Translations under genes and position numbers: made by a program
Part shown: in pieces, positions 15,777-17,618 of the stretch
Numbering within the stretch: position 1 is the first letter of the stretch
Layout: every line of letters starts with the position of its first letter
Assembly (NCBI RefSeq): GCF_024345975.1
Contig: NZ_JAGQCD010000004.1
Location: forward strand, 1 to 64,000
Direction: 5' to 3'
DNA length: 64,000 nt
Source: Cyanobium sp. Cruz-8D1
Lineage (GTDB): Bacteria; Cyanobacteriota; Cyanobacteriia; PCC-6307; Cyanobiaceae
The notes under the pieces: generated by a model
Seen by the model: only the letters and a program-made list of their open reading frames with translations
Database searches by the model: none
Told to the model about the DNA's origin: nothing

Positions 15777-15848
15777 TTCCCAGCCCCTGATGCGGTCGGA
15801 CCCGCCGCGGACCGGTTGATAGTTTGTGCCCACTGTGTCCGTCCAACG

Positions 15849-17012
15849 GTGAACATTCAGCTCGGTCGCTCCAGGACCGTCCGCCGCGCCTACGGCATCG
15901 ACGAAATCGCCCTGGTCCCGGGCGGCCGCACCGTCGACCCGGAAGTGACCGATAGCAGTTGGAGCCTCGGGGGCCTCCAGCGGGAGATTCCGATCATCGC
16001 CAGCGCCATGGATGGGGTGGTGGATGTGGGCATGTGCATCGAACTCACCCGGCTGGGGGCCCTGGGGGTGCTCAACCTGGAGGGCGTCCAGTGCCGCTAC
16101 GACGATCCCGAACCGATCCTGGATCGGATCGCCTCGGTGGGCCGCGACGATTTCGTGGCTCTGATGCAGGACCTTTACAGCCAGCCGGTCCGCGAAGACC
16201 TGGTGCGGCAACGGATCGCTGAAATCAAGGCCGGCGGCGGCATCGCGGCGGTGAGCGCCACCCCGGCGGCGGCCCTGCGCTTCGGGGCGGCGGTGGCCGA
16301 GTCGGGCGCCGACCTGTTCTTCGTCCAGGCCACGGTGGTCTCCACCGAACACGTCGGCCCCGAAGGTCGCCAGACCCTTGACCTGGCCGCCCTCTGCCGC
16401 GACCTGGGCGTGCCCGTCGTCATCGGCAACTGCGTCACCTACGACGTCACCCTGCAGCTGATGCGGGCGGGGGCCGCCGGCGTGATGGTGGGCATTGGCC
16501 CCGGTGCCGCCTGCACCTCCCGAGGCGTGCTCGGTGTCGGCATTCCCCAGGCCACGGCCGTGGCCGACTGCGCCGCCGCCCGGGACGACTACGAGCGTGA
16601 AAGCGGGCGTTACGTGCCGGTGGTGGCCGATGGCGGCATCGTCACCGGCGGGGACATCTGCAAATGCCTGGCCTGCGGCGCCGATGCGGTGATGATCGGC
16701 TCCCCGATCGCCCGGGCCTCCGAAGCGCCTGGCCGCGGCTTCCACTGGGGCATGGCCACGCCCAGCCCCGTGCTGCCCCGCGGCACCCGCATCAAAGTGG
16801 GCACCACCGGCAGCCTGGAAAAGATCCTGCGCGGCCCTGCCGGTCTTGATGACGGCACCCAGAACCTGCTGGGCTGCATCCGCACCTCCATGGGCACCCT
16901 GGGGGCCCGCACCCTCAAGGAGATGCGCGAGGTGGAGGTGGTGGTGGCGCCGTCCCTGCTGACCGAAGGCAAGGTGTACCAGAAGGCCCAACAGCTGGGC
17001 ATGGGCAAGTAG
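15849..17012 (+). CDS. guaB3: GuaB3-family IMP dehydrogenase-related protein
   Basis: A 387-aa TIM-barrel protein of the IMPDH/GMP reductase superfamily, read from GTG 15849 ([25 protein letters not shown]). The catalytic loop [18 protein letters not shown] contains the Cys used by IMPDH, and [27 protein letters not shown] forms the phosphate-binding site. The CBS-domain pair of canonical GuaB (~490 aa) is absent, as in the GuaB3 family. It probably acts in guanine nucleotide synthesis, oxidising IMP to XMP. The neighbour downstream is Yfr1 and then trxA, a conserved picocyanobacterial order. Confidence 0.9.
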
Positions 17013-17097
17013 CACGGCGCGGTCCAGCCGGACCCAACGGGGTCGTCGCAGAGCTGGACAACACTGCCTCAAGGCGAGATGGAGGCTAACCTCTTGG

Positions 17098-17157
17098 TGT
17101 GGGGGCTCCGGCTCGCACACTCCTCACACCCCCCGGCCCGGCGTGTCCGGGCTTTTT
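17098..17157 (+). ncRNA. yfr1: Yfr1 cyanobacterial small RNA
   Basis: The RNA contains the exact signature ACTCCTCACAC (17119-17129), the invariant single-stranded motif of Yfr1. It is followed directly by a hairpin and T-run. The 5' part can form GTGTG...CACAC pairing. The location between guaB and trxA is where Yfr1 sits in many Synechococcus and Prochlorococcus genomes. A TAACCT -10-like hexamer (17087-17092) fits a start near 17098, giving ~60 nt, the expected size. Yfr1 is known to repress outer-membrane protein mRNAs and to matter under stress. The exact 5' end is estimated. Confidence 0.85.
17136..17157 (+). terminator. Intrinsic terminator of Yfr1
   Basis: GCCCGG (17136-17141) pairs with CCGGGC (17147-17152) around a 5-nt loop, followed by TTTTT. 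It is the 3' hairpin of Yfr1 and would also stop read-through from guaB3. Confidence 0.85.
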
Positions 17158-17294: not shown

Positions 17295-17618
17295 ATGTCC
17301 AGCGCCGCTGCCGTCACCGACGCCTCCTTCGAGCAAGACGTGCTCAAGAGTGATGTGCCCGTGCTGGTTGATTTCTGGGCCCCCTGGTGTGGTCCCTGCC
17401 GCATGGTGGCGCCGATCGTCGATGAGATCGCCAAGGAATACGAAGGCAAGATCCGCGTCTACAAGCTCAACACCGACGAGAACCCCAACGTCGCCAGTCA
17501 GTACGGCATCCGCAGCATTCCCACGCTGATGCTGTTCAAGGGCGGCCAGAAGGTTGACACCGTCGTGGGTGCTGTCCCCAAGAACACCCTGTCCGGCACC
17601 ATTTCCAAATACCTCTGA
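17295..17618 (+). CDS. trxA: Thioredoxin
   Basis: A 107-aa protein with the WCGPC redox centre ([14 protein letters not shown], Cys ~33/36), the cis-proline segment [11 protein letters not shown] and full family length. It is a cytosolic disulfide reductant for target enzymes. The 5' leader between the Yfr1 terminator and ATG 17295 is ~137 bp and contains GCTAGATT, a -10-like sequence ~30 bp upstream, so it probably has its own promoter. The LOG-family gene begins 37 bp downstream. Confidence 0.95.

Follow-up and report, generated by a model that had tools for sequence, protein, structure and literature searches.

The locus between a guaB-type gene and trxA in Cyanobium sp. Cruz-8D1 raises the question of whether it encodes the small RNA Yfr1 and, if so, whether that RNA has the usual form. 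The window, i.e., the whole 64,000-nucleotide stretch of DNA that was analysed, had been assigned a Yfr1 gene in an initial annotation on the basis of an exact 11-nt motif and a terminator hairpin in the guaB-trxA gap; motif, hairpin, and neighbours are all there. The covariance-model search that it proposed as a check returns RF01116 (Rfam Yfr1) as the sole Rfam family above its cut-off within the window, at 17099-17155 with 65.1 bits (curated cut-off, 38 bits), an E-value of 1.2e-10, and coverage of model positions 1-59 of 59, and relatives agree. On the strength of sequence, model score, and synteny, with folding stability contributing nothing, the locus is identified as a functional member of this known family of trans-acting sRNAs, with a probability of about 0.96. 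It is an ordinary copy at the usual place, one more family member that ORF-based annotation misses and that deserves annotation, and beyond published Yfr1 biology it adds little. The useful extra is a testable porin target prediction together with a candidate Yfr2-type partner for this clade, for which a literature search pairing Yfr1 with Cyanobium found no Yfr1 study. The locus comprises:

15816-17012, + strand: upstream neighbour, a guaB3-type IMP dehydrogenase-related gene with an uncertain start codon (TIGR01304, 508.5 bits)
17087-17092, + strand: -10 element TAACCT (TANNNT) at positions -12 to -7 (genus conservation)
17099-17155, + strand: yfr1, predicted mature sRNA of 57 nt (RF01116, conservation edge, alignment with MIT 9313)
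17099-17118, + strand: predicted 5′ hairpin, 7 pairs interrupted by a 1x1 internal loop at 17102:17115 (fold)
17119-17129, + strand: 11-nt motif ACTCCTCACAC (exact match)
17119-17134, + strand: predicted single-stranded regulatory segment, made up of ACUCCUCACAC (17119-17129) and a C-rich linker (fold, conservation)
17135-17157, + strand: predicted Rho-independent terminator hairpin and U tract (terminator scan, helix pairing)
17295-17618, + strand: downstream neighbour, trxA (thioredoxin, 107 aa; TIGR01068, 142.3 bits)

The exact motif ACTCCTCACAC has a single copy in the window (chance expectation, 0.01), which is also its single copy in the 3.97-Mb genome. By itself the 11-mer carries little weight, because its reversed pattern is found twice in the same genome. 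Synteny is that of Yfr1, with the RNA lying between a guaB-type gene and trxA and all three pointing in one direction. The gene labelled guaB earlier falls more precisely into the GuaB3 family (TIGR01304); the classic IMP dehydrogenase model scores it at 131.7 against a cut-off of 481.5.

The 5′ end is marked by a sharp edge in conservation. Each position from 17099 to 17107 is conserved in at least 34 of 35 genus rows, while the commonest base is held by 26 of 35 rows at 17098 and by 18 of 35 at 17097. The TANNNT box, whose key bases T, A, and final T are each present in 33 of 35 genus rows, ends six bases ahead of 17099; the promoter search at yfr1 found no sigma-70 consensus pair with a -35 box. 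RF01116 matches in two further genomes coincide exactly with the yfr1 coordinates in Table 2 of PMC1242208 (MIT 9313, 1220973-1221029; MED4, complement 1000744-1000797), and these genomes are therefore taken to be MIT 9313 and MED4. In MIT 9313 the match spans 57 nt, its first base aligning with 17099. Conservation edge, -10 spacing, and the start of this match together indicate that the RNA most likely spans 17099-17155, making 17099 a likelier start than the 17098 proposed initially. Yfr1 is characteristically an abundant transcript of 54-69 nt, and an RNA of 57 nt is predicted here. A table and a figure legend of PMC1242208 give 57 nt for MIT 9313 and 54 nt for MED4, while at one point in its text the MIT 9313 and WH 8102 lengths are interchanged; the paper also reports northern signals and a yfr1 start site mapped by RACE.

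In the predicted fold, 16 unpaired bases separate a 5′ hairpin from a terminator-like hairpin, which is followed by a U tract. The 5′ stem contains 7 pairs and one 1x1 internal loop (Yfr1: 6-10 bp and at most one bulge or internal loop), the open segment carrying ACUCCUCACAC is 16 nt long (Yfr1: 16-20 nt unpaired), and the 3′ hairpin at 17135-17153 comprises 7 pairs followed by a U run (Yfr1: GC-rich, 6-9 bp, U tail). As far as sequence can tell, all defining features of Yfr1 are present.

Covariation was assessed on 32 of 36 distinct 57-base stretches, with one from another family (L030) and three with differing hairpin lengths (L200, L202, and L204) dropped from the structure alignment. Among these 32 family rows, 93.3% of the cells pair (153 of 500 shuffles are as high), and the covariation score exceeds all 500 shuffles. 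The terminator helix is 100% paired, with two of its seven pairs changed on both sides, amounting to 8 cells (1 of 500 shuffles as high). Three of the five whole-structure measures (cells paired, both-side pair changes, and further pair types) do not stand above shuffles, with 332 and 278 of 500 shuffles as high for pairs changed and pair types, respectively. In the 5′ helix, variation across the 32 rows is one-sided only, with no pair changed on both sides, and 17102:17115 is mismatched in every row. Covariation thus lends modest support to the Yfr1 structure, and this comes from the terminator helix. Folding energy was rejected as evidence of identity, as it is not significant relative to shuffles either for 17099-17157 (59 nt, z -0.83) or for a 63-nt stretch (z -1.68).

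Counting the own genome, 57 of the 60 members of the relatives set have Yfr1. It occurs in 35 of 37 same-genus genomes (own included; completeness of the two without it, 85% and 64%) and in 22 of 23 genomes from the other families of this class (completeness of the one without it, 95%). Loci were fetched for 49 of the 57 hits, and all 49 carry the exact 11-mer; at 17119-17129, the motif is invariant in 35 of 35 genus rows. The 54-base core at 17099-17152 is identical in eight named records, including Synechococcus sp. BO 8801, Cyanobium sp. N.Huapi 1H5, Aphanothece cf. minutissima CCALA 015, and Microcystis elabens FACHB-917, which suggests that the window belongs to a picocyanobacterium close to them. 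A phylum-wide draw of 386 genomes gives a Yfr1 match in 184, all of which belong to the class of the window. The 20 misses listed, from a total of 202, comprise 15 in other classes and 5 in this class, the latter being four same-family genomes of 1.7-1.8 Mb and one other.

With the GuaB3 and TrxA of this genome as queries against the fetched flanks, a guaB-type gene upstream and trxA downstream are both found at 67 of 76 yfr1 loci, one of them at 7, and neither at 2; the 9 loci lacking one or both are an upper limit, as at least one of them (L023) ends 87 bases after the motif. The synteny list holds 78 rows for the 76 loci, as two loci have a second motif copy on the opposite strand. At two yfr1 loci of another genus of the family (L200 and L201, around 1501-1600), the RNA and its apparent -10 box and spacer together make up a 14-bp inverted repeat (arms GTGTGAGGAGTGTG...CACACTCCTCACAC), and the opposite strand therefore also holds the 11-mer. 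A transcript starting upstream there is predicted to close the motif fully (-47.0 kcal/mol), and one starting near +1 to leave it unclosed (-22.9 kcal/mol).

Three other readings of the locus were weighed. The initial annotation held that a GTGTG...CACAC pairing would sequester the start of the motif and that the 5′ hairpin may differ from the usual one, which would entail transcription from 17097 or upstream, with GUGUG:CACAC closing the first motif bases. The fold itself depends on where the transcript begins. From 17099, all 11 motif bases are predicted to be unpaired with a probability of 0.98-1.00; from 17098, the predicted openness of the first falls to 0.28. A start at 17097 does give an extended helix of a predicted -29.0 kcal/mol that closes the first two motif bases (0.01 open, with the other nine at 0.99-1.00), and a start at 17096 or 17095 also mostly closes the third (the rest are 0.75-0.88 open). 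The GUG:CAC pairs beneath the internal loop belong to the standard Yfr1 model. Bases 17097-17098, on which the added closure depends, lie ahead of the inferred 5′ end: the -10 spacing sets +1 at 17099, and the match with the coordinates published for MIT 9313 starts at the same aligned base. Nor do the extra pairs persist in relatives. Of the 35 genus rows, 26 allow 17098:17119 to pair and 6 allow 17097:17120, with G at 17097 in only 6; no more than 5 allow both. Three extra 5′ stem pairs form in 59.4% of the cells across 32 family rows, for which the shuffle control is uninformative because the motif columns are invariant. Even from 17097, the nine motif bases that pair with porin mRNAs, UCCUCACAC, remain open. 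With upstream bases varying freely against invariant motif columns, the altered hairpin finds no support and was rejected as highly improbable.

An arrangement of guaB3, yfr1, and trxA on one strand, with gaps of 86 and 139 nt, would also suit a cis element, either a trxA 5′ leader or a guaB 3′ UTR, processed or terminated from guaB read-through and involving no independent sRNA. Such an origin is very hard to reconcile with a -10 box conserved at the right spacing and a terminator-like hairpin that closes the unit before trxA. Published strains moreover have a mapped, conserved yfr1 start, with trxA beginning ~100 bp downstream (PMC1242208), and one or both neighbours are not found at 9 of the 76 loci (within the fetched flanks, an upper limit). 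That the copy is decayed and unexpressed is scarcely credible. PMC2190773 does report yfr1 to be absent from two Prochlorococcus strains, but here the window carries the commonest of the 35 genus bases at all 57 transcript columns, and its model score of 65.1 equals that of most relatives. The preferred reading remains that of a functional, independently transcribed Yfr1.

Candidate targets of this Yfr1 are found among porins. Two full-length SLH/OprB porin genes on contig C76 have exact Yfr1 complements over their Shine-Dalgarno regions, with start regions GTGTGAGGAACCC-ATG and GGTGTGAGGACCA-ATG. The complements are 9 nt to Yfr1 17121-17129 and 10 nt to 17121-17130, located 4 and 3 bases ahead of the ATG, respectively, and their duplex energies with Yfr1 of -16.3 and -20.8 kcal/mol are reached by none of 500 shuffles for each. 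The looser pattern GTGTGAGGN{1,8}ATG occurs 10 times in this genome versus 2 reversed. In 42 genus genomes (own included), GTGTGAGGAN{1,6}ATG occurs 90 times versus 6 reversed, and 70 of these 90 sites begin a homologue of the two porins, across 35 of the 42 genomes; the other 7 have no porin site of this form. Because start regions were picked by site, these numbers describe porin enrichment among sites, not the share of porins with a site, and since the site includes the GAGG Shine-Dalgarno core, part of its conservation is expected without Yfr1.

Published work on other cyanobacteria links Yfr1 to the same kind of target. In E. coli, Yfr1 represses a reporter carrying the 5′ region of the MED4 porin PMM1121 (PMM1121-GFP) 4.7-fold (PMC6778093). 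In Nostoc, PMC6974561 reports repression by Yfr1 of 10 of 11 tested fusions and activation of one; for 9 of the 11, the predicted pairing lies immediately ahead of the start codon. The conservation of porin sites in the genus extends this published target class. The porin link itself is known from MED4 and Nostoc, and what would be new is the upkeep of the sites across the porin array and across the genus. Porin repression probably holds in this organism as well. The odds are about even for the broader proposal that Yfr1 in this genus mainly sets outer-membrane permeability, through tandem SLH/OprB porins with exact anti-Yfr1 Shine-Dalgarno sites and release by a Yfr2-type RNA; if true, one constitutive sRNA would control the whole porin array.

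Other candidate sites were scored in this genome. No convincing site was found near candidate starts of mraY and murC, which are Yfr1 targets in Nostoc, in a weak assay that was confined, for each long frame on both strands, to starts within its first 400 bases, with start codons unsettled. One further site, a perfect 10-mer, sits at the start of a short ORF on contig C58 (-28.4 kcal/mol; reached by none of 500 shuffles). The protein of this ORF, which we take to resemble the DUF167 family, appears by eye in this genome only among the sites listed, and it is kept as a lead. A third porin copy (C76:98100-99000, i.e., L114:3600-4500) lies between the two full-length ones and lacks the N-terminal part; its anti-Yfr1 site directly precedes internal porin sequence, as if by deletion. 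Just after this shortened porin (L114:4437-4490), a terminator-like hairpin follows CTCCTCACAC, which has 10 of the motif's 11 bases. The same combination is seen near the 3′ end of an apparent coding region in another genome (G026, L060:1470-1510), where RF01116 scores 30.2 bits, under its cut-off. Both stretches are possibly Yfr10-like RNAs or chance occurrences.

A putative Yfr2-type partner is also encoded in this genome. Yfr2 RNAs are characterised by the Cyano-1 motif (PMC8400943), and a Cyano-1 (RF01701) candidate at G000:C13:54726-54795 scores 36.1 bits, below the cut-off of 41 bits. Cyano-1 hits occur in 41 of 42 genus genomes, 22 of them above the cut-off. Within the candidate, GTGAGGAGTG is a 10-nt complement of Yfr1 17118-17127 (-19.3 kcal/mol). 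Of the 41 Cyano-1 hits, 31 were inspected; 30 have GTGAGGAGTG close to the 5′ end, and in the L158 hit it was not found within the limits of the scripted search. In PMC6778093, Yfr2 restores expression of the Yfr1-repressed PMM1121 reporter. The porin and Yfr2-type complements, as read from sequence, fit the published Yfr1 mechanism.

Taken together, yfr1 would act as an independent unit, with its own promoter and terminator, producing a trans-acting RNA of ~57 nt. Its two hairpins would keep the ACUCCUCACAC segment open for pairing with mRNAs complementary over the Shine-Dalgarno region, which would block ribosome binding. The best candidate targets here are the two SLH/OprB porin genes, whose products would be dialled down, and the Yfr2-type RNA probably competes for this segment through its 10-nt complement. 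What the analysis establishes directly is the sequence, its family membership, synteny, and conservation, and a complementarity kept across the genus; that the RNA is constitutively expressed, represses translation, and is antagonised by Yfr2 is ascribed to it by analogy with work on Prochlorococcus MED4 and Nostoc.

Two other observations lie outside the locus. Viral contigs scanned for a combination of the motif and a CCCG...CGGG hairpin give 7 stretches, none of which reaches any Rfam cut-off. Four of the 7 form one related group; in the two members whose frames were listed, a gene's stop precedes the motif by 7 bases, and for one of the group a 200-base piece has no match in phage records. 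With the group counted once, four viral occurrences are estimated to match chance for an 11-mer in a collection of this size, and they were rejected as evidence of a phage Yfr1. In L033, L034, and L035 (around 1501), inspection by eye finds a similar stretch with GTGTGAGGAG at three places in the genome, which suggests a repeated element.

Among known RNAs, Yfr2/Cyano-1 (RF01701) is a separate family and an interaction partner, not a relative, its candidate lying on another contig. Yfr10 of MED4 has the conserved motif in common with Yfr1, but carries it in a loop atop a stem and is not conserved in synteny (PMC6778093). Here, the motif sits between two hairpins at the standard locus and not in the loop of a stem-loop, and identity with Yfr10 was rejected. 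PMC2190773 describes Yfr1 in 31 of 33 cyanobacterial genomes, and the motif, structure, and location given there are those seen here. The RNA differs from Yfr1 in nothing essential; the fourth pair of its 5′ stem is a G-G mismatch, at a position mismatched in 32 of 32 rows. It shares with Yfr1 (RF01116; PMC1242208, PMC2190773) the two hairpins, the 16-nt open segment with ACUCCUCACAC, a predicted length of 57 nt, the guaB-yfr1-trxA order, and a -10 box six bases ahead of +1.
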